This document shows, in pieces, positions 11,788-60,650 of a stretch of 64,000 nucleotides of DNA. Source of the DNA: Coffea arabica (Eukaryota > Streptophyta > Magnoliopsida > Gentianales > Rubiaceae); NCBI RefSeq assembly GCF_036785885.1, contig NC_092320.1, positions 13,269,557 through 13,333,556 on the forward strand, given 5' to 3'. Position numbers and translations under genes: made by a program. A model generated the notes under the pieces. The model saw nothing but the letters and a program-made list of their open reading frames with translations. It was not told the DNA's origin and made no database searches. The first letter of the stretch is position 1; each line of letters opens with the position of its first letter.

Positions 11788-14700
11788 AGTGGTATTAGAG
11801 CAGTCAGGTTAGGCTGCTCAATTGTAGCTGTTACAAATGGATGATTCGGATAGTGGTTGCATGATAAAATTGAATGCTACTAATTATTCGATTTGGAAGC
11901 CTAGAATGGAAGACTACATGTATTGTAGAGATTTATTTGAACCTGTTCTAGGAGATAAAGACAGACCAAGTGATATGAGTGATGAAAAATGGGCCAATAT
12001 GCACAGAAAAACTATTGGTAATATTAGAAAATGGATTGGTCAAAGTATTTTTCAACATTTTGCTAATGACACCAGAGTTGATATATTATGGAAAAGGCTT
12101 GAGAGTATGTATGAAAGAAAGACAGGTTTGAACAAGACTAGTTGTCTGAAGCAGATTATTCGAATGAGATATAAAGATGGGGAAGATATGACTGAACACT
12201 TGAGTAATTTTCAGAGATTGATAAACCAGGCAACTACATTAAATTTGAACCTGGATGATGAAGTGCAGGCTTTATTATTATTCAGTTCAATACCGGATAG
12301 TTGGGAAACCATGGTGGTTTCCATCAGCAATTTAGCTCCGAGTGGTGTGTTGACCATGGCTATTGCAAAAGAAGCTGTGATGAATGAAGAGTTCAGGAGG
12401 AAGGAATAAGGAATTGTCTATGAGTCCTAACCTCTGGTGACAAAAAAGAAAGAAAGAAGAGGGAGAAGTAAAAGTAGAGGACCCCACAACAGGAATAATA
12501 AATCTAGAGGCAGGTCTGAGTCACGAAAAAATGTTGCATGCTATTATTGTAAAAAGAATGGGCATTATATGAAGGAGTGCAGAATTCTAAAACGGGATCA
12601 AGCTGAGAAAAAGGGAAAGACGAAGGAAAAAGGTGATGAAGAGACTACAGCAGTTGTGGTAGCTCATGATGATATGTTTGTGTTCTGTGATGATGGCCAG
12701 GTGAATATTATTCATTATGACAATGATTGGGTAGTTGATTCAGGTGCATCCTACCACGTTACTCCTCACAGGCATTTCTTTTCAACCTACACTGAAGGAG
12801 ATTTCGGATGTGTTAGGATGGGAAATGAGGTCTCATGCAAAATTGTTTGCATGAGAGACATATATTTGGATACAAATACCGGGTACCAGCTGATATTAAA
12901 AAATGTTCGACATATCCCTGATATTCGCCTTAATCTTATCTCTACAGGAAAACTTGACGATGAGAGTTACCATAGTTTGCAAGGTGGAGGCAAATGGAAA
13001 CTCAGCAAAGGAAATCTCGTTGTTGCTAGAGGAAAGAAACAGAGTACTCTCTACGTGATGCAAGCCAAGTTGAGGAAGGGAGAAGTGAACGCAGTTCGTG
13101 ATTCCTCAATTGACCTTTGGCATAGGCGACTTGGACACATGGGTAAAAAAGGGATTCAGACACTTGTTCGCTAACAGCTCCAACCTGAAGTTAGAGGTAA
13201 TGCACTTAAACCTTGTGTTGACTGCATTTATGGGAAATAACACAGAGTTGCATTTCAAAATTTTCCTCCATCTAGAAAATTGAATTCTTTAGAATTGGTG
13301 CACACTGATGTCTGCTATATGAAAGATAAGTCTCTTGGTGGTGCTGTTTATTTTGTAACCTTTATTGATGACTTTGCTAGAAAGGTTTGGTGTTTTGCTT
13401 TGAAATTCAAAGATTAGGTTTTGGATGTGTTTAAAGACTTTCATGGCAAAGTTGAAAGAGAAACTGGTAAGCAGTTAAAGTGTGTACGTGCTGATAATGG
13501 TGATAAGTACAGAGAACCATTTGAAATCTATTGCAAGTCCCATGAGATTAGATTGGAGAAGACTGTACCAAAAACTCCTCAAGAGAATGGAGTAGCGGAG
13601 AGGATGAACAGATCCATCACTGAGCGGGTCAGATGTATGCTCTCTAATGCTAAGTTGTCAAAATTTTTTTGGGATGAGGCAATGAGGACTGCAGTCACTT
13701 TGATAAATCTTTCTCCATCAGTTTCTCTAAATGGTGATATCCCAGAGAGAGTATAGACGGGAAAAGATGTGTCTTTTAAGCATTTAAGAGTTTTTGGTTG
13801 CCAGGCATTTGTTCATATTCCCAGAGATGAGAGGTCAAAACTTGACGTAAAATCAAAACAGTGTATTTTCTTGGGTTATGGACATGAAGATTTTGATTAT
13901 AGGCTGTATGATCCTGTTGAAAATAAGGTGATCATGAGCAGAGATGTTGTCTTCTTTGAAGATCAAACCATTGAAGACATTGATAAAGGTGACAACTCAA
14001 AATCCTCAGATGACATTCCTGCTAGCACAAATTCAGGTCCAAATCCAATTCCAGTACCTGTTGATTTTAATCAAGGAGGAGCTGAGACGGAGCAGAGAGA
14101 AGATATTAATGATGGTAATAATCCTACTGCTGATGAACCTAAGCATGAGGCGCCACCTACACCACCACCGCCACCACAAGAAGAACTTAGAAAATCTACC
14201 AGAGAGAGGAGACCCTCTAGTAGGTATAATCCTCATGAATATTTGTTGTTAACAGATGGAGGAGAGCCAGAGTCCTACAGTAAGACTCTAGAGCATGAGA
14301 ATAAAGAAGATTGGTTGCGAGCCATGTAATAGGAGATGATATCCCTGCATGAGAATCATACTTATGATTTAGTGAAATTTTCTAAGGGTAAGAGAGATCT
14401 GAAAAACAAATGGATTTACAGGTTGAAAACTCAGGAGCACACCTCACAACCAAAGTATAAAGCAAGATTGGTTGTGAAGGGATTTAGTCAAAAGAAGGGT
14501 GTAGACTTTGAAGAAATTTTTTCTCCTGTGGTAAAAATGTCATCAATTCGAGTTGTTCTTCATATTGCAGCCAGTTTGAATTTGGAAATCGAGCAACTTG
14601 ATGTGAAAACAGCTTTCCTGCATGGTGACTTGGAAGAGGAGATCTACATGGAACAACCGGAGGGGTTCAAAGAAAGTGGCAAGGAAAATCTTGTATGCCA

Positions 14701-15844
14701 TCTCAAGAAGAGCTTGTATGGGTTGAAACAGGCACCGAAACAGTGATATAAGAAGTTTGACTCCTTCATGACAGACCATGAGTACCACAGGACTACATCT
14801 AATCACTGTGTTTATGTGAAAAATTTTTCAAATGATGATTTTGTTATTCTCCTGCTATATGTTGATGACATATTGATTGTTGGACGTGATACTGTGAAGA
14901 TTGACAGGTTGAAAAAGGAATTAAGTAAATCTTTTGCAATGAAGGATTTGGGTTCGGCTAGACAGATTCTGGGGATAAAAATCTCACGTAACAGGCAAAA
15001 TAGGAAGCTCTGATTGTCTCAAGAAAAATATATTGAGAAAGTGCTCAACAGATTTAACATGAGCCATGCCAAGGAAGTCTCAACTCCACTTGCAGGTCAC
15101 TTTAAATTGAATATCAAACAGTGTCCTACAAGTGAGAAAGATAAAGAAGACATGAAAAAGGTTCCTTATGCTTCGGCCGTTGGTAGCTTGATGTACGCTA
15201 TGGTTTGCACCAGACCAGATATTGCTCATGTAGTTGGAGTGGTCAATCGGTATCTCTCTAATCCTGATAAGGAGCATTGGAATGCTGTCAAATGGATTTT
15301 CAGGTATCTCAAGGGAACTTCTAGATTATGTCTATGTTTCGACAATGGTAAGACTATGCTAGATGGATACACTGATGCAGATATGACAGGTGATCTTGAT
15401 AATAGGAAGTTCACATCTGGGTACTTGATGATTTTTGCAGGGGGAGCAGTGTCATGGCAAAGTAAATTAAAGAAGTGTATCGCCCTTTCTAGTACGGAAG
15501 CAGAGTATATTGCAATTACTGAAACATGTAAGGAGACTCTTTGGTTGCAGAAATTTCTTCAAGAGTTGGGTATGAAACAAGAGAAATATAGTCTTTACTG
15601 TGACAATCAGAGCGCTATTCATTTGTGTAAGAACTCCACATTTCACTCTCGATCCAAATACATTGATGTGAGATATCATTGGATTCGGGAAGTATTGGAT
15701 TCCAAATTATTGACACTTGAGAAGATGCATACAGATGATAATGGTGCTGACATGTTTACCAAGGCACTGCCTAAAAATAAACTCTTATTTTGCAGACAAG
15801 AAACAGGTTTGATGGAACCCCCCAAATGAGCTGGAGGAGGAGAT

Positions 15845-34568: not shown

Positions 34569-34599
34569 TAAAAAGAAAAGAAAAATGAAAGTTGTACGT

Positions 34600-36860
34600 A
34601 TAAAAAGAGAATTCTCAATCGCAAAAACTATGGCAGATTAATGCACTTTTCTTTTTGTTTCTGCTGCTCCTCGAGAACTGAAAGGCAGGTATGCCCTTTA
34701 TTCTCCATTTTCCTCTTCATTTTCTCACTTCTCTTTTTTTGTTTGTATCTCCAGTGGTGCATGAAACATCTATGACTTTTTTATATATGCATATATAGCA
34801 TACCACATAGTGAGAGGCTCCAAGAAGCGAGAAATACAATATTTGTTGTTGTACTCTCTATAACATATATGGCATGGCTTCCAGTGGTATTCAAGAAAGT
34901 TGTGTTTGATCTTTGAAGATCTGTCCTGAAAATGATTGATATCTTTGCACTTTATTGTCACTGATCAAATTCAGATCTCAAACATTTCTTTGTTGTCTTC
35001 TTCTGTTTTTTAAGACTATCATTGTCTGAAACTCCTGGTTTGGTAAGAAAATTATTGCACCAGACCAAGTCCCCTGGATGAAGTCTTGTTGGACTGGACA
35101 CAATCTTAATCTTGGGGTCCTAATTCTTACGTCCTTTTGGTTTTTCTTGTTTTTCCTCCGCTTAATTCTTTCTCTTTTTCTTTTGAGTTGAAATGTGTTC
35201 TTTTTCCAGGTCATAGCGTAATCAAGATCAGGTGATGATTGTGATTCTGATTCTTGAGTCTTTGTTTGCCTTGAACTAGGAGCTTTGTCATTCTTGTTCT
35301 TCAGGTACTTCTCTTCTCCTTTATGCGTTTTGGCCTGGAGAATTTTGAAGCTTTTTTCTGAATTCTGAGTTGTCCTGATCAGGCATTTTGTCCCTTGCTG
35401 TTCTAAGTTGTGCTATCGCATATAAGCCTGGTTTTTTAGGCCAATCTTCAAGCTTAATTCCTCGTTCCTGAATCACAATTCCTCCTTGATGAGGTGCAAA
35501 ATTACTAGTCTGCATTACGCTGGCAACCATCCCTGGTAATAAAAGTACTACACGAAATAGAGGAAGAAAAATTAGATTGGTCATGTTTTAGTCACCATAT
35601 GTATAGGCCTAAAATTTTTAAGGGATTGATAAATTAAAATTTGCTCGATTACAAACTAAAATTAAGATAGACCCAATGGGCTAAAACGGCGAAATTCATT
35701 TCTGCAATTCTTCTTGTTTTGCTTGTTCATCCAGAAATTTTGCAGTGAAGAGAGGAACAAACATGAACGTGATACGAGAAACGCGGGGACGATCTCACCC
35801 TTTGACTGAAAGACAAATTAAGGCCCATGAGATTTAAAATAAACTTCAACATGGGACCCCAAACGGAGGTATGATAGTAGTAGTATTTTATTGACTAAGA
35901 GGTCAAAGTAATTCATTGAAAATGGCCAAGCCTGCTAATTAGCCTCAGCTGCTGTAGCGCCCCCCTAGAAAACTCCACACAAACGAATGTTAGGCCATAA
36001 ACACTCCTCTGGTCTTGGGGTTGGGAGTTTTCAGTTTTGTGTTTGGTTGTAGTCTCGAGAAGAAAAAGTCCTCGAACTTGATGCGTGCATTTGGTGTCGG
36101 GAGAGTCAGGTCCATCAATAAAATACTTGCATATTACTGCAAAGCTGAAACTGTTGCTTAACATGGCAATGGTTTGAATCCTAAAGTGTTGTTGTTCACA
36201 CTTCACACCCTTTAATCTCAAAATTTTCCACCTTTTTATCTGGCGTGAGGCGAAATTTTAAGAGGGATACATGTAAATTTAGCTCTTCCCTTTAAATTTG
36301 ATTTATTAAAGAAATACAAATTTAATGATATTCTAAGAAAATTTGGACCTGTTTGCTTATTTGAAATGTCACACTTGATAATTGTCTATAGCTTTGGTAA
36401 AGAAACAGGATTAATGTCCACATACATTTAACATAATGGTATTGTACTAGTCAATTGGGAGGATTTAAGGAGAATATTTGTGAGTTATAAAGGCTAAGCA
36501 AGGAAAGGAAGTAGGACAGAGATTGCTTGAGCAAATCTAGCTAAAATGGGCATAACTCATTTTCGGGCAAGTCTTGCAAATTGATTCAAGACACCATAAC
36601 TCATTTTCATGCTTATTCACTGGGAGTCGCATCACTATGTTAAGACAGCACAGTGACACATAGCCCACATTCGACTGTGTACACATACTCACATAGTAAG
36701 CAAAAAGAAGCAAAAAGAACAAAGCGTCTTGAGCTGTTCTCCTCCTCTTCATTTTCTCATGCTTCTGCTGCCTAAACCATGTTTATTATCCTTCTGATTT
36801 TCAAGAATAGACACCCAAAAAAAAAAAAAAAAGAGCCCATCATTTTTTTTTAAAAAATAA
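34600..36860. other. Gene-poor region, no gene recognised
   Basis: Contains several minus-strand open frames of 60-100 codons (34978-35214, 35321-35584, 35913-36221, 36537-36752). None shows a recognisable domain or a paralogue in the window. It is probably intergenic. Confidence 0.4.
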
Positions 36861-37142
36861 TATGGTTCCCTTCCATTCTATAAATATCTCTCTGGCCTTG
36901 TGTTTTACTTTTTCCTTATTCATCTGTCATGTGAGCTAAACTGATGCTAGCTAGACACCCTTTAGTCTTTTAGTTTTAGCTGTCCTAGCTAGCAGACTTT
37001 TAAAGTGAAGACTAGACAAAGAACCTCACTTTCTAGTTTCTACTGGCTGGTTTTCATCTGATCAAACAGTTTTCCTTGGCGGTGGTGCGACAGTCGTGCA
37101 AGAGGCTGAGCTCTGTCTGAGGCTGGTGGCTGCAGTCAAACG

Positions 37143-37280
37143 ATGAAAGCTTTGGAGAATATTTGGGTGCTCTGGAAAATGGCTTCATTTTCTAGCAGCC
37201 ATTTGCGCTCAAGGGCAACTGTAAAAGCTCCTCCTTCGCCGGTACTTCATGTTTTGCAGGGCGCTATCCATTTCCTTTGA
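37143..37280 (+). CDS. 45-aa small open frame in the miR171-mimic locus, unrecognised
   Basis: Starts MKALENIWVLWKMASF and ends HVLQGAIHFL. It is rich in Ser and Pro in the middle and matches no peptide-hormone signature known to me. It is about the first sizeable ATG frame after the TATA box, so it could be translated from the candidate transcript or be chance. Confidence 0.2.
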   Translation: MKALENIWVLWKMASFSSSHLRSRATVKAPPSPVLHVLQGAIHFL

Positions 37281-37375
37281 TGTCACATCACATTAGATAT
37301 TGAGGGTTGTGGTGCTGGTGGAGGAGGAGGGGGAGCGGTGGCGGTGAGGGGTGGTAGCCAGCGCAAATGGTGGGA

Positions 37376-37401
37376 GTGATATTGGCGGGACGGCTCAATC
37401 T
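37376..37401 (+). promoter_or_regulatory. miR171 target-mimic site (eTM-like)
   Basis: The + strand reads GTGATATTGGC-GGG-ACGGCTCAATC. Against miR171b/c (recalled sequence UUGAGCCGUGCCAAUAUCACG), positions 1-9 and 10-20 all pair and three bases bulge out between positions 9 and 10. Against miR171a, positions 2-11 and 12-21 pair with a 3-nt bulge between 11 and 12. A 3-nt bulge at positions 9-12 with full seed pairing is the published rule for plant target mimics of the IPS1 type. The mimic protects from cleavage and sequesters the miRNA. Confidence 0.6.
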
Positions 37402-37430
37402 GATTATGTTACATATGGTAATATATATGA

Positions 37431-40085
37431 TCTTTAATTTAGTTCATGGTAAACTGAACTATGATTTTGCCTAATGATGGTGTTTTGTAAAGAATGGTAT
37501 GTCAAAGATTTGTCCCAAATTGTTAGAATTTTGCAATTCTTTTTTCTACACCAACAGATTGCTGCATCCTGGGAATAGAAAGCTATCTCTTCAGTTCTGG
37601 AAAATGTGAAAAATGATAGTCCAAGTTTTGCTGTCTCATTTGGGCTTTGATCTATCCTCAATGTTAGCAATAATTTGCCTTACAAGTTCCACTGTCAACC
37701 GAGGCATGATTTGTCTCTACGGCTGCTAACCTTAGTTACAACATTGCTAATCTATGCTCGGTAGTCTCCATTATGAATACTATCTTTTTAATCAATTTTT
37801 TTTTTTTGCTTGTCCTGACTACTAATACTAGTATAAGGTTTGCAAAAGAAAACGGAAAAAAAAAAAAAAATCAATTGAGCTGGTAATGTGATCAATTCCA
37901 TGAATCAACTGGTGTGTTGGATTTAATGAATCAATGACGAATGCTTGATGTTAATTTGCTGCCGGACGGCCATATTTTTTCGTAGTTGTATGATTTGTCT
38001 TTTACGTTCAGTTGGACAACTGATGTGGGCTGTGGGGTAAACTTGAAAATGATCGATGGAATAATAATAATATATTTCTAGCAAAAAGATTATTGATTCT
38101 AGCAAGCAACGAGGTAAAACTTACTTGTGTTTGGTAGGTACCCTACCCTATGCCTAGATTTGGACAACACTTATTTTAGTTGTTTTATTTGCATTTATCA
38201 AACAACATATAATAGTAGTGTCTACAAAAGAAAAGACTTGTCGGTACAATCATAGAATGGGAGATGGATAAACGGATTAGCCATAACGTTGTTGGCTTTC
38301 CATGAAGCAAAACTAAGCCCTAAAAAATTTTTTTTATTCAATTATTTCTTTTTTTTTTTTTTGTTTCCTTCTTGGGCTGTAGGATTTGCAGCTTTTTATT
38401 TGTATGCATGTGAATTAAGGTGTAGCTATTTGGTTCTTCAGTTCCCTTTTGTTGCTTTGTTCCAAAGCTTCTTTCCTCCGGATTTATGGATTGGTGGGGG
38501 TCTTTGGACCCGGAAGGATGATTGGAGTACATAAACTTTAAAAGAAGGGAACAATGAGTACTGGTACTGCATAAAATTGGTGACAGGTACCCCTACTGTT
38601 GGCCTGTTGTATGCAAAAACTGTTCACAAGCTTTTGGATTTTCTCCCCTGGCAAAAAACCCACAAGATTTTTTTGAGTTTCTTTCTAATACTAGAGGTAC
38701 CTCGGCTGTGGCTAGCCCCCTAATAACTTAATTGAACATATAATAACAAAACTTTTTGGTACGTAATAGATAAAAACACGAGAAAATTTGAGCATAAGAA
38801 GAAATTCCATCTATGAAGTTAACTCTTCTAAATCAAGGAGACAATAAGCATAACATCTATTAAATCCATTACTAATCTTGATATTAATGAACAAGTGACA
38901 ATAGGGAAGGAAGAAATCTGATTTTTTCGATGCAACGTTGAGAAACGATTTATAAAGAAATAGAAAAAGAGACTTTAATCGATTACATAAAAGAGTTGTT
39001 TAAATGTAATAGTTGGTTAGCTACTAATCAAATATAATTAATCAATATCCAAGGATTAAAATTTTTTTCATTAATCTATAAAGCTTGATCCTATAGTCAT
39101 AAATTAAACAATATATAAAAACAGTAGAAGTTATTATAGTTATGCAACATGACTTGCAATTGAAATCTTTTGTCTTTATCCTGTATGATACATCTTTTGT
39201 CTTGCTCCATCAAGATAGAAGTAGGGAAATAAAAAATGGAAGAAAAATCATAGATTCCTCAAAGGAGAGTTACATCACATGTCAATAAATAAGAGTGCTA
39301 CATTAAATTCCCATGTCTCTTATATAACAGGTAGACAATTAGAACTAATGAAAATTGATCCAAGGGTTGTAATGCAGTGTTATTGTATTAAAACTAATCT
39401 AACGGTGATGAATTAAATAATAGACTCACTTAGTCAAATAATTAAGGTTAAAAAAATTCTTTGGGCACAAAAGGAGAATAAAGAAGCCAAACTTGCTCAG
39501 TTTGGTATGAAAAAAAAAAGCAAAAAAAAAAAGGAGATATGCAAGAGGTAAGAAAATCATGTGCAAGAAAAATATTAGACTTATGACACTTGTCAAAACT
39601 ATTGATATCAGTGGTGGTGAAGGGATGAAGTCAGAAGTGGACTGTTTTTACTGTGTGTGTGTGGTGTTGGTGGTTGCATTTACTGAGCTTGATACAGAAA
39701 TTGGCAGCTTGGTAGGGCCGGAAAATTTATGAGGGTGATTAAAAAAATGATCAGCGAAATGTGCAATGGGATGAAGGGAACAGAAAGGTCTGCAGTTATT
39801 GCAGACTGCACCATATCTAACAGGATAGATTTCTGCCTATGCAATTGCAATTCATTTGGCTTGCAGAGCTCAGTGAACTGTCCCATTTCCTCTGCGGAGT
39901 GTGTGTACCGTGAAAATGGTTAGTTAGGAGCAATTTTAACGTTTTCATTTCAAGGTAGTATTATCAAATTGAGACTTTTTTTTTTGGTGGGAAATTTCCG
40001 GGGCTACAGATCACAGTGGAGTAGTTTTGTTACATGTAATAATTAGCTGTATTATTCTTTTTTTTCCTTTAACACTTGTAATTGG
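37431..40085. other. Intergenic, no gene recognised
   Basis: AT-rich sequence with poly-T/poly-A runs. Short frames at 37923-38534 and 39680-39923 show no domain. Confidence 0.45.
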
Positions 40086-48589: not shown

Positions 48590-49237
48590 TCATGTACACT
48601 CCAAGTCTTGGAGCTGCTTGGAGGAGGTATTGAGGTTCATGGTGCAACTCATGTTGGTGGACTTTTTCTTCGTGAAAATCAACATTAGTCTCACTTTTCC
48701 ATTCAACGTTGCTCGACTGGTCAGAGGGATCCAAGCGTGCTGATTCAGTTCACTTCCAAGCACATCTCCAGGCACGTTGGTAGAGGACAAGTCCACTGGA
48801 ACAGCGAATTTCTTCGTTGATTTGAAACTAGCCTTTCCCTTGGGAATCGCAGCTTGCCCTACCTTGTAGTTCTGATAGAAGAATTCAACAGTGCTATCTT
48901 GGTACTTGTAGCGACCAAAGTTCGGATTCTTGACAGAGAGTTCTGCAAACATCTGGGTACTGAAGGAAGAATTTGTGGGCAATGTTGCAGCCTTGAAATC
49001 CTGAAATGTGGCCGACCTCACGCGGAATTTTGGCGTCCTAACCTTCATCACCACGAGGGAGAAGACCAATATAACAGCAGTTTGGAACACAACAAAGGCC
49101 GCACCATATGCAACATATTTCATTCGCTTCTTGCGACGCTCTTCCCTTTGGGCGACCGAGGCCAACTCTTCATCCCCTCGTCCATGAGGATTGGCAGTTG
49201 CCGCGGCAAAAACCTTTTCTCCCCCGTTCTCTGCCAT
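48590..49237 (-). CDS. LEA_2 / NDR1-HIN1-like membrane protein, array copy 1
   Basis: 215 aa, resembling At1g64065-type proteins. It has a cytosolic tail with a basic stop (REERRKKRMK, 31-40), one transmembrane helix at about 41-64, and an extracytosolic LEA_2 (WHy-type) beta domain. The domain contains FRVRSATF (71-78), the conserved NPNFGRYKY (104-112), FFYQNYKVG (119-127), P.GKA.F and WIPLTSRATL.GK. Potential N-glycosylation sites include NSS at 89, NMS at 195 and NTS at 203. Family members sit in the plasma membrane or ER and several act in defence or abiotic stress; the exact role here is unknown. The first ATG matches the start MAENG of copies 2 and 3. No intron. Confidence 0.9.
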   Translation of the reverse strand: MAENGGEKVFAAATANPHGRGDEELASVAQREERRKKRMKYVAYGAAFVVFQTAVILVFSLVVMKVRTPKFRVRSATFQDFKAATLPTNSSFSTQMFAELSVKNPNFGRYKYQDSTVEFFYQNYKVGQAAIPKGKASFKSTKKFAVPVDLSSTNVPGDVLGSELNQHAWIPLTSRATLNGKVRLMLIFTKKKSTNMSCTMNLNTSSKQLQDLECT

Positions 49238-49380
49238 TATATTTGATGCTTTTGATCAATATTTAACAAGAGACGGTTCTAGGCTTTTTACTTGCGGCTC
49301 AACGAAAGCTGAAATTTTGTATAGCTACAGATCTAGGAAGCTTCAGTTGGTGATGAAAAAGTTTCGGCAGTCACTGGGAG

Positions 49381-49388
49381 TATTTATA
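49381..49388 (-). promoter_or_regulatory. TATA box of LEA_2 copy 1
   Basis: TATAAATA on the minus strand, 144 bp upstream of the ATG. The same box occurs at 113-147 bp in all five copies, followed in most by 'gactgcc.aaacttttcatc', so it is part of the duplicated unit. Confidence 0.7.
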
Positions 49389-49399
49389 TTGTCCTATTA

Positions 49400-51468
49400 C
49401 TGAAGACTTGCATAATTAGAACTCCTTTCTTGAATTTTTCTTGTGCAAACGAGTAATTAATGCTAAAGGCGGTAAAGGTAGGAGTAGACTTTGTAGACAC
49501 GTTAAAGGGCTTTAATTTCTCGACTTTCCAGATGTTTGGGAAGTTGCCCTGAAAACCCTGATAAGCGGTTTGTTGAAATTGAGGTTGTAACTGCGGAATT
49601 GGGAGTACCATAGATTCTGTCTTGTTGATGTTGCATAACTGGTTATTCTTGGCTCTAAGTAATCTGTTGCTCTAGAATGTTTAGAAATAATTGTTTGTTT
49701 ATCGTACACTTTTGGCACTCGAAACATTTATGTGGACTATTATTATCTAACCAGTAAGTTTATTATAGGACAGTCACTTTGAAAAGTTGCCATATGTAGC
49801 CAACTTGTTAGAAATAATTTCTTTGCACAAAAGCAATATATGTACAAGACTCAACTTTGATATCCACTCAATGTCTAATGACATATGAAAAAGATCATTC
49901 CAATTAAGATTCTAAAAAATTAGAAGTTTTGAGTACAAATTCTTTTGTCCTTCTTCTTGCTTTTTAAATTTCATCCCTTAGTTAATTACTAAATCTTTTT
50001 TAAAAATCATTTATTAATTTAGTGTTTTCTCCTTTCTCACTGTCACATGCATTTGCTACCAATCTGTGTAACATATGTATCACTTAAACCACGTATGACT
50101 ATTTCGATTTAGTAGAATTAGTTAATCTACAGCAATTCTCAAACTTCATAATTGAAACACATCAAGCGTCCCCATCCATTAAAATACTTTGACTAAAAGA
50201 TGTGTGCTCCTGGTTGTATAATAGGTATATGTATATGTACATATACAGATCATGTGATCCAAATACTTAAGAGCTAATTTGTAGAATCTAACTTTTCAAA
50301 TGCATTAGAAACTTATAGTCGTTTGAATCCAATAATTTAAGTATTTAATTTCAAACTAAAATTTGTTAGGGGATTGCAAGAATCCAGAATCATTTTAGGC
50401 CAATTAAAGCAGCATTTTGCTGATCAATTGGTGAACTTTATTGAAATTCACTCTCATTGTTTGATAACCTATATAAAGGTTCTGTTTGAGCTGTATAAAA
50501 ATTACAAGGCAAAATTAATGGGCCTAAAATTTTGTCAAATTAATTGAACATAGAGATGACAGATTCCTCTAAGAAACTACATTTTAAAAATATCCAAAAG
50601 AACGGGCTTGGTGTATCCTAATATGCTTCTTGAACATCTAAAGATTTTGTAATTACTGTGGAATGATCGCCCGTAACACTATATGTGTTGAAACGGAAGG
50701 TAAAGATATACCACAACATAAGCTGATATTTCTTTCTCATTCAATAAGTTTGACTGAATTTTGCCCTCTTGTCCCCTCAACTTTGTTTTAGTTTGAAATG
50801 AACCGAATAAAAACTGATTGATTATTATCTTATAGAAAGCAACCGTAAAAGCACCAAATGGTGTACATGCTAGGTCGAAGTCCAACATGAAATTTAATCT
50901 TTACGGTGTTCCAATAACTTTCCAAGGAGTTAGCTTATGCCCTTATCATAGGTGGATTTTTGGTCGTGTATTTGAATTAGATTATGATAGTTTCTAATTG
51001 GTAATTTTTTGGATGACGTAGTATGTCCAACGCACCCCCAATATCAAATTGAGCCTGTTCTTTTTCTTTTTTTTTAAAAAAAAAAAAAATTTTACTCCAC
51101 TAAAATGATAAGCTCAACTAAACATGGGAACTGTCATTTCGAAATTGAGCAGAAGTCCCTTTACATACCACTTGTGTCACGGAATGTGGTTATTAATTTC
51201 GTGATTACGAGTAATTGTTGCAGATAAACTGAATAGCAATAACCTGGAAAAATCGAAAGTAGAAAGCTCATTACCAAAAGGACAAATACTGCTCTATAAA
51301 ATTAGATCGTACTGCAAAAGTGTAGAAATTATTACAAGACAATAAACAAGACACATTACTCCCTCTTCAAACAACAAGTAAAAAAATTTGTAGGTAACAC
51401 ATGAAGACTAGCATATCTTCATCATACAAACGATAGTATTGATACAAACTGCTAGATATGTAATCAAA
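49400..51468. other. Intergenic between LEA_2 copies 1 and 2
   Basis: The duplicated promoter region of copy 1 reaches to about 49560 ('aacgagt', 'ccagat..t.ggaagttgccctg', also found near 53290-53430 and 55920). The rest is AT-rich, with no gene or clear repeat. Confidence 0.5.
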
Positions 51469-52116
51469 TCATTTGCAGCTCAATTCCTGGAGCTGCCTCG
51501 ATGAAGTATTGAGGTTCATGGTGCAATCCATGTTGGTGGACTTATTTTTCTTCAACATTAACATTAGCGTCACTTTTCCTTTCAATGTTGCTCGGCTAGT
51601 CAGAGGGATCCAAGTATGCTGACTCAATTCACTTCCCAATACATTCCCGGGCACATTGGCAGAGTTCAAATCCACCGAAACGGTGAATTTCTTTGTTGAC
51701 CTAAAGTTAGCCTTTCCCTTAGGAACCACTGCTTCCCCTACCTTATAGTTCTGATAGAAGAAGTCAACAGTGCTATCTTGGTACTTGTAACTACCAAAAT
51801 TTGGATTCTTGACAGAAAGTTCTGTAATCATGCTAGTGCTGAAGGAAGCATTTGTGGTCAATGTTGAAACCTGGAAATCCTCAAATGCAGCAGACCTTAC
51901 GCGGAATTTAGGTGTCCTAACCTTCGTCACGACAAGTGCAAATACTAGTATAACAGCGGTTTGAAAGACTGCGAAAGCTGCAACATAAGCAAAGCATTTC
52001 ATGCGCTTCTTGCGACGCTCGTCCTTTTGAGCCAATGAGGCCACCTCTTCATCCACACGGCCATAAGGGTTGCCTGTTGCTGAGCCATAAACCTTTTGTT
52101 CGCCGTTCTCTGCCAT
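51469..52116 (-). CDS. LEA_2 / NDR1-HIN1-like membrane protein, array copy 2
   Basis: 215 aa, collinear with copy 1 without gaps. It has tail MAENGEQKVYGSATGNPYGR, basic stop KDERRKKRMK, a transmembrane helix at about 41-64 (FAYVAAFAVFQTAVILVFAL), and a LEA_2 domain with the intact NPNFGSYKY motif. It differs from copy 1 throughout, so the duplication is old. The helix sequence is the one shared by copies 3-5, which places copy 2 closer to them in that part. Its promoter is cut by two nested MITEs (52331-53248) starting 67 bp beyond the TATA box. Confidence 0.9.
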   Translation of the reverse strand: MAENGEQKVYGSATGNPYGRVDEEVASLAQKDERRKKRMKCFAYVAAFAVFQTAVILVFALVVTKVRTPKFRVRSAAFEDFQVSTLTTNASFSTSMITELSVKNPNFGSYKYQDSTVDFFYQNYKVGEAVVPKGKANFRSTKKFTVSVDLNSANVPGNVLGSELSQHTWIPLTSRATLKGKVTLMLMLKKNKSTNMDCTMNLNTSSRQLQELSCK

Positions 52117-52256
52117 CGGATCCGATACTAGGTTAGTTATATTTTTGTTGGCACAGGGATGTTTAATTTTAGCTGTCTATTAATGAAGCTGAAAATGTAG
52201 ATATATATGAAGAAAGGTTTAGTGGCGGATGAAATGTTTTGGCTGTCGAACGGAAG

Positions 52257-52264
52257 TATTTATA
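52257..52264 (-). promoter_or_regulatory. TATA box of LEA_2 copy 2
   Basis: TATAAATA on the minus strand, 141 bp upstream of the ATG. The nested MITEs begin 67 bp further upstream. Confidence 0.7.
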
Positions 52265-52330
52265 GTACGATAAAATAGTTGCCAGGGTTGTCCAATTTAT
52301 TAGTATTGATTACTTAGCCTTGTGAAGAAC

Positions 52331-53136
52331 CGCAACTAGGGGTGTAATCGAGTCGAGTCGAGCTCGAGTATTGCTATACTCGAGCTCGACTCGACTCATA
52401 TACACCAAAGCTCGAGCGAGTCCAAAAAATCGATACTCGAGACTCGACTCGAAAAATTTTCTTTAGGCTCGAGGCTTGACTCGATACTCAAGGCTCGAAA
52501 ATTTTTTTCATTTTAGGTCTTTTTACAATTATGTTATTACTTTTTTCCCATTATAGGATTTTATTATAAAGAAAGATATATTGTAAATTTCATATAATTT
52601 ATACCCATAATGGTTATTTTATAATTATAATACATATATATTATTTAAATTATAAATATATTATTTAAATAACTCCGGCTCGTCGAGCTACTCGACTCGA
52701 CTCGAGTTGGACTATTTCGACTCGAAACTCGACTCGATTTTCATTCGAGCTACTCGAAACTCGGCTCGAACTCGGTCAACCCGAGTTCGAGCCGAGTCGT
52801 TGACCGAGCTAGTAGCTCGACTCGCGTACATCCCTAACCGCAACTACCTGTTCTGTCCACCTTTCTGTCTCATTTTTTATTATATTACTATTTTTTTTCA
52901 TAAATATTATGTTTTAATTTTTTTTATTTTCTTAAAATCTAATAACTATTAATTAAATAAAAAAATAAATACAAAAGTTTCAAAAAATAATATATAATAG
53001 AAAATTAAAAAATAAAACAAAAACATTCATTAAAAAATATTATTTTTTATGCATTTTGATTTTTTGTGTACGTTAAATTTTGTATATTAATCAGTTAATA
53101 GTGATTGAATTTTAAGGAAACAAAGAAGAACTAAAC

Positions 53137-53173
<37 letters not shown>

Positions 53174-53248
53174 TAAGAAATAATAATATAATAAAAAGTG
53201 AAATAAAGTGTAGCACAGGAAATGGTGGAACAGAAAATCCGTTGCGGC
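52331..53248. mobile_element. MITE with inverted ends, interrupted by a hAT MITE
   Basis: The outer element is about 410 bp once the inner element and its extra target copy are set aside. The left end CGCAACTACCTGTTCTGTCC and the inward-read right end GCCGCAACGGATTTTCTGTT are related. They continue similarly through CCACC and TTTTTATTATATTA on both sides, towards a central (TA)n. GAAGAAC flanks both ends (52324-52330 and 53249-53255). Superfamily unclear, possibly MULE-like given the duplication of 7-9 bp. Confidence 0.65.
52337..52836. mobile_element. hAT-type MITE with GAGTCGAG subterminal arrays (nested)
   Basis: 500 bp with a perfect 8-bp duplication ACCGCAAC (52329-52336 and 52837-52844). 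The ends are TAGGGGTGTAATCGAGTCGA and, inward from the right, TAGGGATGTACGCGAGTCGA. CTCGAG and GAGTCGAG words fill both sides around an AT core. Since its target is the tip of the outer MITE (52331-53248), it inserted later. Confidence 0.94.
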
Positions 53249-53255
53249 GAAGAAC

Positions 53256-54276
53256 TCCAACGTTTAAGATTTTCTCTTTCTTGTGAAAAGAAAACGAGTG
53301 ACTTAAAGCTAACGGCAAAGGCAGGAGGAGACTTAGCAAAGCCAGTTCTCGAGTGTTTCCTTTGAACACGCTCTTAACGGCTTTGATTTGTTGACTTTCC
53401 CAAGTTTCCAGATATTAGGAAGTTGCCCTGCAGAAGTCTACCAGATAAACATTTGATTTGAAGTTGGGAGTCACGCACCATTGAGTCAATGACTAATTCA
53501 CAGCCACTTAATTCTGCCAGTGTTGACTGCTGGGTACGATTTCTAGAAGCATTAACTCAAAAATGTCTCGTAAGTTCTCCTTTACAGCTGCCTAGACAGA
53601 TTTCAAAACTAGTTATCATCTAACGTAGTTTTCTAATATCTTTTTTTATCTATTAAAAAATATATGTTTTAAATTAATTAATATCACATCGATCGGTCAG
53701 ACATCAGTAATGCTAGTAAATTCAACTGAATTTATTTTCAATTTCGGAATCCTCTCTTAGTGTGACCGTATTCGTAATATCTAGGAAAATTCAGGAAAAC
53801 CCAAGCTCCCTATTTCCCAATTTCATTTAAATATTGAATCTAGTGACTGAGAGCAAGTTTTGGAAAATTACATTGGTCGTGATTTTATATGAACTCAAAA
53901 ATCTGTATAAAACGTACGATTGAGGCAATACACCCCAAGGGTTCAACGAGCATTTCTCCCTAGAAGTCTTCCCTTTTAACAAGTCATCATCTACATGAAC
54001 ATGACATGCCCAAAATCTAAAGAACGCCTAATTAGTTAACGATTGTCTCGATAGTTAGGCAAGTGGTTCTCCTCAAAAGCAATGGGTATTTTATTCAAAA
54101 AAAAAAAAAGTCCTTTATTTTTCAGAAAAGCGCAAGTAGAAAGATTTTTTTTTTTCAGTTTACGTTGAGCTTAATTATCTTTGAGCATTGGAAAATTTAA
54201 CTTCTTATTGCTTGTTTTAGCATTATATACTTTGCTTGTTTTAGCATTATAGACTTGAAATGTTTTCTTAATTGTA
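53256..54276. other. Displaced distal promoter of copy 2 and intergenic DNA
   Basis: 53280-53440 resembles the upstream regions of copies 1 and 3 ('aaaacgagtgact', 'ggaagttgccctg'). It is therefore the part of the copy-2 promoter pushed away by the MITEs. The rest holds no gene. Confidence 0.5.
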
Positions 54277-54606
54277 CTCCCTCCATCCCACTTTGATGGT
54301 CCTGGTTGTTTTTTCACACAGTTTAAGAAAAAATAGTTAACTTTGTTGGAACAATCAATTTAGGTAGCTATTTTTCTAAAATACCCTCACATTAATTAGA
54401 GTATAACTTTATGAGAACTTGAATTGATGGTAAAAAAGAATTAACTCTCATTAAATGGGGTAGGTTTATAGTAACAACAACTTACATTGAATAAGGGTAT
54501 TTTAGGAAAATTAAAATACAACTACATTCTTTAATTGGAAACTGAACTACAATTTGGGACAGACGTAAAAGAAAAAAATAGGACTATCAAAGTGGGACGG
54601 AGGGAG
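54277..54606. mobile_element. Stowaway MITE (Tc1/mariner)
   Basis: 330 bp with near-perfect inverted ends CTCCCTCCATCCCACTTTGA and, inward from the right, CTCCCTCCGTCCCACTTTGA. It is flanked by TA on both sides, the classic Stowaway signature. No coding capacity. Confidence 0.95.
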
Positions 54607-54999
54607 TATCTAATATTCGAATTTACTATTAGAAAAAAATAATCCTTTGAAAATTGGAAGCGCCTTTGAGAAATCAGTAACACTACTATTTATAGCACCA
54701 TCCTTCGCTGGGAATAACTTCTAGCCGTATTTAGACAGAAATTGGCAGCAGTAATCTTCAACCAGAAGTGGAAACCTCAGTCAATGACAGAAAAGCGGTT
54801 TACAAGACCAAAGGGATAATATTCACTAAAACATTTGAACTGAAAAATAGTACATACTACAAATAATGACTAATTGGAGATTGGAGTAAACTACGTTACT
54901 CTCCCAAACAATCACAAATAAAAGACTTTCTATACAAAATATCACCAATAGAAAAATATGTTACATTAGGATAAACTAGGACGAGGGTACTTGATGAAA

Positions 55000-55617
55000 T
55001 CATTTGCATTCCAAATCCTGGATCTGCCTAGAAGAAGTATTAAGGTTCATGGTGCAATTCATGTTGGTGGACTTGTTTTTCTTAAAAATCAACATAAGTG
55101 TCACTTTTCCTTTTAACGTTGCCCGGCTAGTCAGAGGGATCCAAGGTTGTTGCCTGAGTTCATTTCCTAATACGTCTCCCGGCACATTGGCAGAGTTCAA
55201 ATCCACTGGGACAATGAATTTCTTGGTCGACTTGAAATTAGCCTTTCCTTTGGGAGAAACAGCTTCTCCTACCTTATAGTCCTGATAGAAAAATTCAATA
55301 TTGGTATCTTGGTACTTGTAGCGACCAAAATTTGCGTTCTCGACGGAAAGTTCTGCATTCATCCTTGCGCTGAAAGAAGCATTTGTGACCAATGTTGAAA
55401 CCTGGAAATCATCAAACGTGGCAGATCTTACTCGGAATTTAGGGGTCCTGACCTTCATCACAACGAGTGCAAAGACCAGTATAACAGCTGTTTGAAACAC
55501 AGCGAAGGCTGCAACATATGCAAGACACTTCATTCGTTTCTTGCGACCCTCTTCTCTTTCAGCAATTGAGGCCGCCTCTTCGTCATAGGCCTTTCGTTGC
55601 TGACCGTTCTCTGCCAT
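55000..55617 (-). CDS. LEA_2 / NDR1-HIN1-like membrane protein, array copy 3
   Basis: 205 aa starting MAENGQQRKAYDEE. The frame is open four codons further upstream, but it begins there with TTG, so the ATG at 55617 is the start and agrees with copies 1 and 2. The cytosolic tail is about 10 residues shorter. The basic stop is GRKKRMK, and the transmembrane helix is at about 31-54. In the LEA_2 domain the NPN motif has become NANFGRYKY. Sequence and tail length are intermediate between copy 2 and copies 4/5. Confidence 0.9.
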   Translation of the reverse strand: MAENGQQRKAYDEEAASIAEREEGRKKRMKCLAYVAAFAVFQTAVILVFALVVMKVRTPKFRVRSATFDDFQVSTLVTNASFSARMNAELSVENANFGRYKYQDTNIEFFYQDYKVGEAVSPKGKANFKSTKKFIVPVDLNSANVPGDVLGNELRQQPWIPLTSRATLKGKVTLMLIFKKNKSTNMNCTMNLNTSSRQIQDLECK

Positions 55618-55729
55618 TGATTTTGACAATCTATTTGCACGAGATTTTTGTTTTGATAGCTTGCTGCTGCGGGTAGAATATAAAGGTGAACGAAGCTTTT
55701 AGTGGGGATGGAAAACTTTAGGCAGCCTG

Positions 55730-55737
55730 TATTTATA
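55730..55737 (-). promoter_or_regulatory. TATA box of LEA_2 copy 3
   Basis: TATAAATA on the minus strand, 113 bp upstream of the ATG. Confidence 0.65.
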
Positions 55738-55739
55738 GT

Positions 55740-57409
55740 GTCATAGTACTATGACGAGGTATGAGATTTGGCGATAAGATTTCCGCATCAGGAGATAACT
55801 TTTTTGAAGTTTTCTTGAGAAAACGAGTGACTTTTGCTTAAGTCAGATTTTGTAAAATTTCTCTTGTCGTATACGCGCTTGAGAGATTTTCAACTTGGTG
55901 ATGTTCCAGAGAGCAGGAAGCTGCCCGGCAAAAGTACTCAAGAAGGACCCTAGAAACCATTAAATATTCTTTCTTTCTAAAGCTGGAGACTATTTTTAGA
56001 TTAATAATTCAGAAATAATTATAGATAGACAAAGAATAAAAATTCAACAAGAAGATTGACAAAAGTTCTTGGAGCAAGTCTGAGGCTCTGGGTCTTTTTG
56101 GTTACAGAACCAGAGTTTTTTTTTTAAATTATAGATAGTTAAATAAAATTTTCCGAAATAATTATAGATAGTTAAAGGATAAAAATTCAACAAGAAGATA
56201 GACAAAAGTTCTTTGAGCAAGTCTGCAACTCTGGATTTTTTTTGGTTATAGAACCAGAGTTTTTTTTTTTTAAAGAAAAAAATTTACAGAAAAGAAATAC
56301 GTTATGCTATAAAGGTTTATTGGACACTTAATTTTCAACTAGTAATTTTTCTTTTTGGGAAAAACTTAAAATTTAGTCTTCAATTCTCATTATCAATGAT
56401 TTATTCCGGAAATAATTAGTAAAATACCCACGGATTAAGCCACTTTTTGGTTATTTGCCTAAGCGATGTTATTGTAGAGAAGGTATTCGTTCAGTCACAT
56501 TAAGTGGCGATCGATCGCCTTAAGCTTAATGAATCAAATATATTGCCTATGTTCAAATCGATTTTCACATTGAAAAGATCCTATCTGCCATTCAAAGCAA
56601 TCAGCTATTCTTGTCAACCCTTTCCTCCATTCTGTTTTTTCATTAGAACATTTTCATTACGAGTTACAAGATCATGGGAAGTTGATAGCAGTGACACACT
56701 ATTTGGTAGCATGTGATACTATGCCTTTTTATTTGTCTTTGTACGATTTCCACATCCATATAACATAAACTGTGAAATGAGCCTCTAAAATTATAAGGTC
56801 TTTCAATTTTACCCCTTAAATTGAAGTAAAAAAAAAAAATCAATCAATTCATCTTTTGTTTACACACCATATATATGCTAGGAAATCAAGAGATTTTGGT
56901 ACACATTATTGCATTTGTATGCTTAATAGAAAAAAGGTACAAAAAGTTTATGGGTAGCCAAAAAATTACCTTGAAACCACAGCATATAAGTATTTTTTTT
57001 CATTTCAGAGTCCTATCTTTTTAACGTAATTTCCAGAATTCTTGGCGCAAACCTCAGAATGGTAAACTGCTTCAAATTTTGGTATTTGTCTATAACTTCT
57101 TTTCTCAAAATTTTGAATAATACCGGAATTATACGGTATGACAATTCTTCTAGAACATGGAAGATGGATCGTAATGAGCGACGGGCGAACATTTTAAGCA
57201 AGCCACTTATGGAATATATTTGCTTAGTAAAACAATAAGGGGGGAGATCGATAGCCGTCAAGAAACATGCACTCTCCAGTCTCGCCTCAGACAAATCAAC
57301 AAACAAAAGAATTCGTATATTATAATAAATTCATCCAAGGAAATCTATGGAAGCGATGCATGATATTAACCAGAAAAACAAAAAATAAAAAAGGAATCAA
57401 CATGACAAA
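55740..57409. other. Copy 3 promoter, tandem repeat and copy 4 3' flank
   Basis: The promoter-like part runs to about 55940. A 143-bp unit beginning 'gaaataattatagatag' is repeated in tandem at 56012-56154 and 56155-56275, with differences. 57200-57409 is the start of the recently duplicated segment shared with 60660-60850 ('gatagccgtcaagaaacatg'). Confidence 0.7.
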
Positions 57410-58003
57410 TTATGAGCACTTCAAATCTTGGAGCTGCCTGGATGAGATATTGAGGTTCATGGTGCAATTCATGTCGGTGGACTTATTTTTCTTGAAGATC
57501 AACATTAGCGTCAATTTTCCCCTCAATGTTGCTCGGCTAGTCAGAGGGATCCAGGCGTGTGGACTCAATTCATTTCCTAGTACACCCCCGGGCACATTGG
57601 CAGAGGATAAATCCACCGGAATGACGAATTTCTTGGTTGATCTGAAATTAGCCTTTCCCCTGGGAACCACAGCTTCTCCTACCTTGTAGTTCTGATAGAA
57701 GAATTCAATAGTGCTATTCTGGTACTTGTAGCGACCAAAGTTTGCATTCTTGACAGAGAGCTCTGCAATCATCTTGGTGCTAAAAGAAGCATTTGTGGTC
57801 AATGTTGAAACCTGGAAATCCTCAAGTGCGGCAGACCTCACGCGGAATTTAGGCGCCCTGACCTTCATCACCACAAGTGCGAAGACCAATATGACTGCTG
57901 TTTGGAACACAGCGAAGGCTGCAACGTATGCAAAACATTTCATCCGTTTCTTGCGACGCTCTTCCCTTTGAGCCACTGAGGCCATCTCTTGATCATATGC
58001 CAT
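57410..58003 (-). CDS. LEA_2 / NDR1-HIN1-like membrane protein, array copy 4
   Basis: 197 aa starting MAYDQEMASVAQ. The frame also has an ATG 14 codons upstream; the later one is chosen because it aligns with MAENG of the other copies, and 'aaatcaATGGC' is the shared context. The tail is the shortest in the array. The transmembrane helix is at about 23-46. The LEA_2 domain has NANFGRYKY and FFYQNYKVG. It differs from copy 5 at only six residues (about 3%), so the two are recent tandem duplicates. Confidence 0.9.
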   Translation of the reverse strand: MAYDQEMASVAQREERRKKRMKCFAYVAAFAVFQTAVILVFALVVMKVRAPKFRVRSAALEDFQVSTLTTNASFSTKMIAELSVKNANFGRYKYQNSTIEFFYQNYKVGEAVVPRGKANFRSTKKFVIPVDLSSANVPGGVLGNELSPHAWIPLTSRATLRGKLTLMLIFKKNKSTDMNCTMNLNISSRQLQDLKCS

Positions 58004-58149
58004 TGATTTTGATTCTTTTTGGTGCTGGAATGTATCTATTTGCACGAGATGTTTGTTGAATTGTTTTGATTGCTTGTTGCTTGGCGAAGTATATAAAGAT
58101 TGAACGAAGCTTTTAGCGGTGATGGAAAAGTTTAGGCAGTCTCTTGGGG

Positions 58150-58157
58150 TGTTTATA
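58150..58157 (-). promoter_or_regulatory. TATA-like box of LEA_2 copy 4
   Basis: TATAAACA on the minus strand, 147 bp upstream of the ATG, exactly the distance in copy 5. The consensus A at the seventh base is C here. Confidence 0.55.
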
Positions 58158-58159
58158 GA

Positions 58160-60650
58160 TTTATAGTGCTAAAGAGAGGTGTTTATATATTGATGTTAGT
58201 TAGAGGTCCACTTTTTTTGAAGTTTTCTTGTGAAAGCAAGTGAACTTTTCTGCTAAAGTTAATAATGGCTTCGTAAACTTGCTATTGTAGTTTACGCGCT
58301 TACGAGGTTTTGACTTATTTGATGATCCAGAAGATAGGAAGTCGCCCAACAAGACACCAGTATGATTTTTTTGAAAATAAGATTGCTTATCCAGTTTGCG
58401 GTGGATTTGGGGCTTTGAGGAGTGTTAATGCGCCACTATGGTATTACAGAACCTTCTTTATGTTTTATCCCCTTTTGGGGTGATGCTCGTCTTTCGTTTT
58501 CCTTAACAATGGGATATAACTCAATTTTCTTCTTAGCATATATAAACCCGAATGGGATACTACAGAAGAAGTTTGCAATTCTGGTAACCCCCTTTCCCAT
58601 TTGTTTTAGCAAGGAAAAAAAGTAAAATTATTTTCATATATATATATATATATATATTGCACTTAAAAATATAATATCTTGTCCATTGCCTTAGTATACA
58701 TCGCAAGTATATTGGATTAATGTAATACTGCAACATTGTTAGATGACCGAAGACATAAAATTCCTAAAAGAAAAAAATTGCATCAAGTTAAACTAATTGT
58801 GTTGCACGTAAATTTTTTGACCTCTAAAACATCTAAAGGAATTAAATTCTAAAATCGCCCTCTAAATTGCAAGAAAGTGTCATTTTAGCCTCTCCAATTG
58901 TAACTCTTTCAATCTTACCCTCTTAATTGATCTTCTTCACTTCATGGTTAATTTTCTATATTCATCAAACATGTGAAAGGCCAAAAAAAAAAAAAAACAT
59001 TTACAAGGCCATTTATTTTAATTTTTTTTATATTAACTAAGCATTTGAATTTTAAAATTGTTCAAGTTGCAAAAAGCACTTGCTGAAGTTTCCAACAAAG
59101 CTACACATCAGAGAATGACCATTTAGAAAGCAAGTTTATTAATACCTCCTTGATGATGATTTTCAATGCACTAGTAATGCCTAAAATATGCCAAAGATTC
59201 ATTTTAAAGAGTAGAGTGAATTTTTAACCAAAAAATAAAGTTAGGTGACTAGACCATGCCAAATTAAATAGTTTAGTGATTATTTTTGACGTTTACGCTA
59301 TTGTAATATTAACCTTAAGAAATCATTTTGATATTAAGCACTTGCCCACCCTCCTAAGCTTGAAAAATGATATTTGGTAGATATGTTATTTACAATTTAC
59401 ATTTGCTCAATAAAAAATTTGAAAATCTTATATAAACAAAGACAATCAAGCTAAAAATTGTCTATCTATTGTTATGAGTTTAAATAAGACTTGTTTATCT
59501 ATCAAATCAAATGCAGATAAACTTTTCAATATTATGCTAATCAAACTAAATTCGAACCAAAATAAAATGTTTCTAAATGCAAAGGATAGGGGATTCTCTT
59601 TTTACTTCATAAAAGGTGGAATGCTGATATAGTATAGTTCACTCAGAAAAAAATCTACACGATGATAAAATATTTTTCAATGAGAAAATTCCAAGTTTAT
59701 AACATCAAAGATTACACAACGGATTAGATTTAAAATTTCCATTAAAATCCAGAAAAAATTGTAAATTAAGCCTCTAGAATTGTAAGCCTTTCGGTTATAC
59801 CCCTTAAATTGATTATCTTCATCAATTAAAATTTTTTTCTTTAAACAACATATACAAGGCCGTTACTAGTGGCTCTAGCACACACACCCTATGTGTGTGC
59901 TTCATTAAATTAAAAAGCAAAAACTTAAAAAAAAAAAAAAAAGGATGGGTGGCCTTAAAACTACCTTGAGACATTCTAGAGCTAGGAGGTCATTGCTTAT
60001 AATATGATCTGGTGTGAGCGCCTTGTACCATTTTGTCCTTTCCTATAAAGATAATGTTCGTATTCAAAAGGGGAGAAAAAACTATTTATAAGATGGAATA
60101 TATTGCTCTGGCTTTATAAATTGGAAAGACATCTTTCTTATATTACTACTCTGATCAAGTAGCAAAAAATCACTCGCAGAAGTTTCTAAAGAATGCGACA
60201 ATAATTGAAGCCAAAAGCATACGAAGTTCGATGCTTACTAGAAAAATCCAAGAGTGAAGGAAAGCTGACAAAAAATTGTGTTACCCACGTCATGTAACTT
60301 ATATTTTCTTTTTTTTTGCGCTTGAGCAGCTTAACTTCTGCAAATCAAATTTTACGTATGGCTTTATTCTTACAGAATACCCAAACTAATTCTCCAGCTG
60401 CAGCTCAAAAATGGAAAAAAAAAAAAAAATTTTGTCCAGCTGCCATGCCCATATTTTATGTATTTTTTTTTCACCTAATTTCCAAAGTACGAATCTCTGG
60501 GGTAAATTAAACATGCTTGGCGAGCCCTCAGATTATTATATCAAATGTTATATTTGTTCATTATTGCTTTTTAGGTAGAATATTGAAATAATGCTGGCAT
60601 TGTATCTGTACTGAAATTTTTCCAAAAGAAGGAAGAAAGGGAGCCACTGA
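58160..60650. other. Duplicated promoter segment and intergenic DNA of copy 4
   Basis: 58160-58620 corresponds to 61600-62160, and about 59660-60250 corresponds to 62165-62448 plus 63657-63850. About 1 kb between (58620-59650) has no partner in the second unit. It contains 'cctctaaattg...ttaccctcttaattga', a worn copy of a motif also seen near 56780, 59770 and 62270. No gene. Confidence 0.55.

Follow-up and report, generated by a model that had tools for sequence, protein, structure and literature searches.

The bulged miR171 site and its surroundings

The window, by which we mean the whole stretch of 64,000 nucleotides of Coffea arabica DNA that was analysed (C11:13269557-13333556), carries a bulged miR171 site at positions 37375-37403 of its + strand. 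An earlier, sequence-only reading had placed such a site at 37376-37401, and re-reading of the sequence confirmed these coordinates and letters. The features of the locus are as follows.

36860..37720, + strand: putative transcribed unit, drawn from low divergence against the C12 homeolog, with limits set post hoc
36879..36886, + strand: TATAAATA box, putative promoter element by its sequence
37143..37280, + strand: short 45-aa ORF located before the site, without Pfam match (ORF and Pfam scan)
37367..37474, + strand: short 35-aa ORF that spans the site (MVGVILAGRLN...; ORF and Pfam scan)
37375..37387, + strand: 5' arm AGTGATATTGGCG, partner of the miR171 3' half (sequence, pairing and C12 copy)
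37387..37390, + strand: central 3-nt bulge, read as GGG (37387-37389) against miR171b/c and as GGA (37388-37390) against miR171a-type isoforms
37391..37403, + strand: 3' arm CGGCTCAATCTGA, partner of the miR171 seed half (sequence and pairing)
37418..37557, + strand: possible intron, GTAATA...CAACAG, starting 15 nt past the site (consensus match)

The putative promoter element lies 496 bp before the site, in agreement with the TATA box that had been reported about 490 bp upstream. The three + frames of approximately 36.86-38.5 kb gave no Pfam match above cut-off. The sole weak match, to DUF2304, lies downstream of the site and scored 18.5 bits (cut-off 25.5). The 35-aa ORF and the HAM proteins have only ILA-RLN in common, which is dictated by the shared site. 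An Rfam scan of the window gave nothing at the gathering threshold, and a tRNA scan of the window found none. A 1.6-kb query around the site returned, besides itself, the C12 copy alone (95% identity), in a search that skips very common words, and thus no repeat family was found.

The nearest recognised gene, among five other ORFs scanned, is located at 43.8 kb. This gene (43.8-44.7 kb) encodes an NAD-dependent epimerase, which we read as GDP-fucose synthase. The minus strand of 48590-61768 holds five similar tandem open frames. LEA_2 (NHL-like) domains were found in the two of these that were Pfam-checked, and the array cross-matches the homeologous array at approximately 79-92%. The frames at 4231-9005 and 11828-15829 are read as putative Gypsy-like and Copia-like LTR retrotransposons, respectively, and neither has a long match in the C12 stretch compared. 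Two small proteins are encoded on the + strand; that at 17798-18412 matches pectin methylesterase inhibitor with 28.3 bits, just under the cut-off of 29, and that at 9834-10337 has no Pfam match.

We profiled the divergence between the subgenomes in 1173 overlapping 860-bp intervals, covering 31,229 aligned bases in 15 hand-chosen collinear blocks. The putative transcribed unit, 36860-37720, differs from its C12 homeolog by 10 substitutions and 0 indels, compared to interval means of 23.9 substitutions and 3.5 indels. Ten or fewer substitutions were found in 54 of the 1173 intervals and no indel in 60; a single interval combined both, and this is probably the site locus itself. It should be noted that the limits of the unit were set after the profile was seen, and the low divergence is therefore suggestive and not a test. 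A comparable interval in the epimerase gene has 12 substitutions and 0 indels. The interval from 34581 (34580-35440) has fewer substitutions than the site locus, with 3 substitutions and 1 indel. It overlaps a minus-strand open frame of 144 codons, and may reflect gene conversion or a further gene.

The bulge is present in the sole relative compared, the other subgenome, and all 29 site letters are identical on C12. The subgenomes are too close for this conservation to be informative, and it carries little weight; with a divergence of 1-3%, 29 identical letters are to be expected in any case. The in-frame TAG that had been described eight codons before the ATA is present in the window copy but not in the C12 copy, where its A is replaced by C.

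Pairing with miR171 and the MIR171 genes of coffee

Three extra bases in the middle of a microRNA site are a known design of natural RNA decoys, which soak up the microRNA and are themselves left uncut. We scanned the site with sequences that we take to be those of miR171a and miR171b/c. In agreement with the sequence-only reading, 20 of 21 positions of miR171b/c are paired, with a 3-nt bulge between positions 9 and 10, and 20 of 21 positions of miR171a are paired, with the bulge between 11 and 12. The A at 37390 additionally pairs with U9 of miR171b/c. The register of the bulge is 9/10 for miR171b/c, 11/12 for AGAUUGAGCCGCGCCAAUAUC, 8/9 for UUGAGCCGCGCCAAUAUCACU and, when the A pair is counted, 12/13 for UGAUUGAGCCGUGCCAAUAUC. 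The bulge is exactly at 10/11 in no register, and at least one position off in each.

As criteria for an IPS1-type mimic we used the rules that Wu et al. published in 2013, in the form given by the available parts of PMC4274897 and PMC5148581. In brief, miRNA positions 2-8 must be perfectly paired, a 3-nt bulge must lie opposite positions 9-12, at most three mismatches or GU pairs are allowed outside the bulge, and the site must be intergenic, more than 200 nt from genes. The rules further ask for expression as a non-coding RNA, on which the TATA box and the low divergence bear only indirectly, for absence of cleavage together with lowered miRNA activity, and for site arms that are kept between species. 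At the coffee site, positions 2-8 are all paired. The bulge falls within positions 9-12 for miR171b/c (9/10) and the miR171a-type (11/12), just outside them for UUGAGCCGCGCCAAUAUCACU (8/9), and at 12/13 for UGAUUGAGCCGUGCCAAUAUC with the A pair. The IPS1-type anatomy proposed earlier stands. There is one mismatch with miR171a or miR171b/c in the forms that we used, and none with the C11/C12 MIR171 described below. As to location, no Pfam domain exceeded its cut-off in the + frames of approximately 36.86-38.5 kb, a result that leaves room for domain-less genes.

RNAduplex, run with six miR171 forms, predicted energies between -29.3 and -33.7 kcal/mol at the site, with a 3-nt bulge each time, and -33.5 to -39.5 kcal/mol at a HAM site. 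The ratio to the perfect duplex was 0.79-0.86 for the same six forms. In predicted folds, the openness of the site was below the transcript mean in three of four cases (0.22-0.29 vs 0.36-0.39), and average when the site was folded with 100 nt of context per side (0.45 vs 0.44). For a candidate transcript spanning 36910-37900, 95% of the windows along the predicted fold were more open than the site, and for 36910-37600 this was 79%. Folding of the longer transcripts is thus predicted to bury the site in part, which counts against the mimic reading.

A genome search with GATATTGGCNCGGCTCAA at two or fewer mismatches gave 108 places, compared to 34 for the control, and the 22 loci at 0-1 mismatch were classified. 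Folding identified 16 of these (8 pairs) as hairpins with a star arm. Four more, on C3/C4 and C15/C16, are open frames of the GRAS type, 805-819 codons long, in which ILARLN has HAM-like neighbours. The remaining two (C19:39.78 / C20:45.65 Mb) stay without class. In one of the hairpin pairs, located at C11:7.59 Mb / C12:6.54 Mb and referred to here as the C11/C12 MIR171, the mature arm reads CAGATTGAGCCGCGCCAATATCACT. This arm pairs with the site over 13 + 13 letters, 26 of 26, and the sole difference between its complement and the site is three extra bases (AGTGATATTGGCG-GGA-CGGCTCAATCTGA). Both mismatches seen with miR171a and miR171b/c vanish with this partner. Beyond the common core, the C11/C12 MIR171 has 3 upstream and 5 downstream letters in common with the site. 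The other 21 of the 22 loci share at most 4 extra letters in all, and the HAM loci share 0 upstream and 2 downstream. The best-matching MIR171 has the same contig and orientation as the site, 5.7 Mb away on C11.

The sequence-only reading would have been given up if the miR171 of this species did not pair with the site. Coffee's own miR171, as read from its MIR171 genes rather than from small-RNA reads, does pair. The isoforms TTGAGCCGCGCCAATATCACT and AGATTGAGCCGCGCCAATATC are ordinary miR171 forms, since both recur in published papers. No title of a paper with either form is on coffee, in the case of TTGAGCCGCGCCAATATCACT among the matches listed. From the letters shared with the C11/C12 MIR171, one could imagine a dedicated decoy of one miR171 member, that is, a linked and co-evolved pair, perhaps one derived from the other, that would buffer TTGAGCCGCGCCAATATCACT/AGATTGAGCCGCGCCAATATC especially. 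We regard this as a rather doubtful, though conceivable, refinement.

Uniqueness of the site and competing explanations

Genome scans covered 1.198 Gb in 131 contigs, of which those up to C22 are paired, with matching loci wherever inspected. A coffee caffeine synthase fragment matches at 99% over residues 25-165 on C17 and at 96% on C18, with more copies close by, in keeping with Coffea, and the 11 pairs are read as the two subgenomes of an allotetraploid. The pattern TGATATTGGC-N0..6-CGGCTCAA was found at nine places with 0 mismatches; two are bulged (the C11 window and C12:11904699) and seven are unbulged. With up to three mismatches, GTGATATTGGCNNNACGGCTCAAT gave seven places, of which two are exact and five have 3 mismatches; its reversed control gave four. 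No place in the genome besides the C11 and C12 copies is within two mismatches of this bulged pattern. The bulged pattern had 0 places in viral contigs, as expected. In the window, four miR171 forms with bulges of 0-5 nt on both strands gave no further place at four or fewer mismatches, and two at five. When the centre was loosened to six bases, 21 places were found at one or fewer mismatches, compared to 5 for the control. Four were exact, namely the site pair and C13:786891 / C14:2410182 (L074/L075). The latter pair, on both paired contigs, was set aside as a weaker miR171-like site: its outer arms match, but its six-base centre does not bring back the miRNA pairing, and 0.7 exact matches are expected by chance.

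We suggest, as a reasonably likely explanation, that a non-coding RNA gene lies here, in single copy in each subgenome, and that its transcript acts on miR171 through an endogenous target mimic site of the IPS1 type. In brief, miR171-loaded AGO1 would bind both arms by perfect seed and perfect 3' pairing, and the three unpaired bases beside the scissile position would block slicing. miR171 would then be held or degraded, and HAM/SCL6-like GRAS mRNAs, of which two homeologous pairs have the unbulged site, would be relieved. With the bulge near the centre miR171 should be held unsliced, since an Arabidopsis miR172 mimic needed a 3-nt bulge (PMC2908682, available part). Of the sequence-only reading, the mimic anatomy and the promoter-like element stand, as does the conclusion that this is no HAM gene, and they are now backed by the fit to MIR171, the presence in both subgenomes, the low divergence of the locus and a miR399 control. 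Its functional part stays conditional: the + strand may be transcribed, and its RNA would escape cleavage and sequester miR171, with predicted effects on miR171 and HAM levels and on the meristem or branching.

It is unlikely that the site is what remains of a MIR171 duplicate that formerly gave rise to miR171 from the minus strand, with the star arm since decayed and three bases inserted in the mature arm. Such an origin finds support in the 26-nt match, which includes letters missing at other loci (3 upstream and 5 downstream vs at most 4), and in the shared contig and orientation 5.7 Mb from the best-matching MIR171. However, a search of 400 nt to each side found no star arm, the best candidates having 8-9 mismatches of 20-21. 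Three miR171 forms likewise found no miR171-sense DNA in the window at five or fewer mismatches. The flanks have no clear similarity to 22 MIR171, HAM and other loci in 44 comparisons, upstream and downstream; the best score (L020 upstream) was reached by 6 of 100 shuffles, and those of the remaining 43 comparisons by more. Short flank matches from an unmasked BLAST (best 40 rows) were read as low-complexity tracts. A neutral copy old enough to have lost its flanks should, moreover, not retain 26 nt intact. The match ends sharply at the miRNA footprint, which speaks for the mimic reading. Judged from the letters, sharp borders and unrelated flanks would fit selection for pairing, with the site either new or derived from MIR171. 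A MIR171 origin would be compatible with a present function as mimic and would not exclude it.

That the match is fortuitous or without function, in intergenic DNA that is not transcribed, we regard as improbable. Rule-based eTM prediction does yield thousands of candidates per plant genome (PMC4274897, available part); for soybean the same text gives 10,410 eTM candidates for 144 conserved miRNAs, of which 144 were found expressed. The chance model, an order-3 Markov model of the window, was applied to the observed bulge placement only. Expected sites with miR171b/c pairing are approximately 5e-8 per 64 kb and 1.0e-3 per genome. For the 22 letters used by miR171a and miR171b/c jointly the expectation per genome is 2.5e-5, and for the 26-letter pairing it is 1.1e-7. 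Against chance, then, stand an expectation of at most 1e-3 per genome for one bulge placement, or approximately 0.004 for the 22-letter union with about 150 look-elsewhere trials, a nearest competitor in the genome with three more mismatches, and the low local divergence between subgenomes. A match of such quality is hard to obtain by chance.

The RNA might also be bound and yet sliced or translationally regulated by miR171, as an unusual non-coding target and not a decoy. The bulge, which in no register comes closer than one position to 10/11, speaks for this, whereas the Arabidopsis miR172 mimic worked with a 3-nt bulge and failed without a bulge or with a single central mismatch (PMC2908682, available part). 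We consider this explanation quite improbable. Very improbable, finally, is a relict or unannotated HAM/SCL6 GRAS exon with an in-frame Gly insertion (ILA-G-RLN): the insertion preserves the frame and GCGCAA is found upstream of the site here and in HAM loci, but the + frames around the ILARLN-type site gave no GRAS match, the flanks are unlike those of HAM loci, and the site fits the C11/C12 MIR171 complement better than HAM, which shares 0 upstream and 2 downstream extra bases.

Comparison with known target mimics

The miR171-HAM module controls meristem maintenance, branching and phase change. If the mimic reading is true, the coffee locus would be a clean natural knob on this module in a tree crop, present in both progenitor subgenomes. 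The tight fit to one MIR171 gene opens the question of how the decoy originated and whether decoys co-evolve with single family members.

The bulged site letters, searched as DNA and RNA in both orientations, are absent from the literature matches, all of which carry the unbulged AGATTGAGCC... isoform. No title found on coffee, target mimics or lncRNA mimics, among the matches listed, reports a coffee miR171 mimic. The available text of a C. canephora ncRNA catalogue has "mimic" a single time, in the title of a reference, and does not name miR171 in the main text.

We used IPS1-type miR399 mimics of coffee as a control. The IPS1 pattern gave six exact places in the genome, one each on C1 and C2 and two each on C11 and C12, and the reversed control gave 0. 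The loci are located at C1:51.60 and C2:45.93 Mb (L063/L064), and at C11:4.57 and C12:3.61 Mb (L065-L068). The C1/C2 and C11/C12 loci are unrelated, with only a 24-nt stretch in common (23 of 24 letters). TATA-like boxes lie 184-799 bp upstream of the C1/C2 loci and 441-1066 bp upstream of the C11/C12 loci. The two sites of the C11/C12 locus are approximately 160 bp apart, with further degenerate repeats around them. Since the C1/C2 and C11/C12 loci share only 24 nt, mimics that are conserved in little but the site do occur in coffee. Maize and soybean mimics are likewise conserved in little beyond the site, according to the available parts of PMC4608266 and PMC4274897. The miR171 locus has in common with IPS1/At4 (miR399) a TATA-like box a few hundred bp upstream, two arms with an unpaired centre, and unconserved flanks. 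Unlike IPS1/At4, it targets miR171 and not miR399, and it has no known inducing stress. It has one site, where the C11/C12 IPS1-like loci have two.

For other miR171 mimics, the following rests on the available parts of the papers cited. Predicted decoys in poplar (PMC9135444), cotton (PMC6888562) and maize (PMC4608266) have a predicted function like that of the coffee site, and the poplar lncRNA was also tested in transient assays (PMC9135444). In an alignment, the cotton site was set beside miR171 mimic sites predicted for Arabidopsis and rice (PMC6888562). The cotton decoy and 6 of 8 maize rows, in contrast to the coffee site, address miR171-5p, the star strand (PMC6888562, PMC4608266). Duplex ratios for maize miR171 are 0.65-0.72 in the eight rows, compared to 0.79-0.86 for coffee, from programs that differ (PMC4608266). 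In Arabidopsis, artificial mimics gave a phenotype for miR171a and none for miR171b and c (PMC2908682). Leaves that are round and pale, along with defective sepals, are reported for MIM171A.

In the same sources, natural miR171 mimics with experimental support are few, and come from rice, lily and poplar. A miR171 review names the rice transposon as the sole natural mimic and cites the lily work (PMC8910752, available part). In Lilium pumilum, lpu-eTM171a/b are RNA mimics of miR171, as proposed for coffee; overexpression lowered miR171 by approximately 50% and raised SCL6 (PMC9171120). Lily is a monocot, and the likeness to lpu-eTM171a/b is drawn at the level of function. Rice MIKKI is a natural miR171 decoy RNA that spares SCL/HAM mRNAs (PMC5599236), and the role predicted for the coffee RNA is alike. 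MIKKI, however, is a rearranged retrotransposon in which splicing creates the site, and this site is mismatched at positions 11 and 14 (PMC5599236), whereas the coffee site is contiguous in the genome, has 2 copies only and has a clean 3-nt bulge. As MIKKI, the lily eTM171 and the poplar lncRNA are already natural miR171 mimics, the coffee site would join a known class. By its letters, it is a candidate addition to the known natural miR171 mimics, and one in which the pairing is unusually good.
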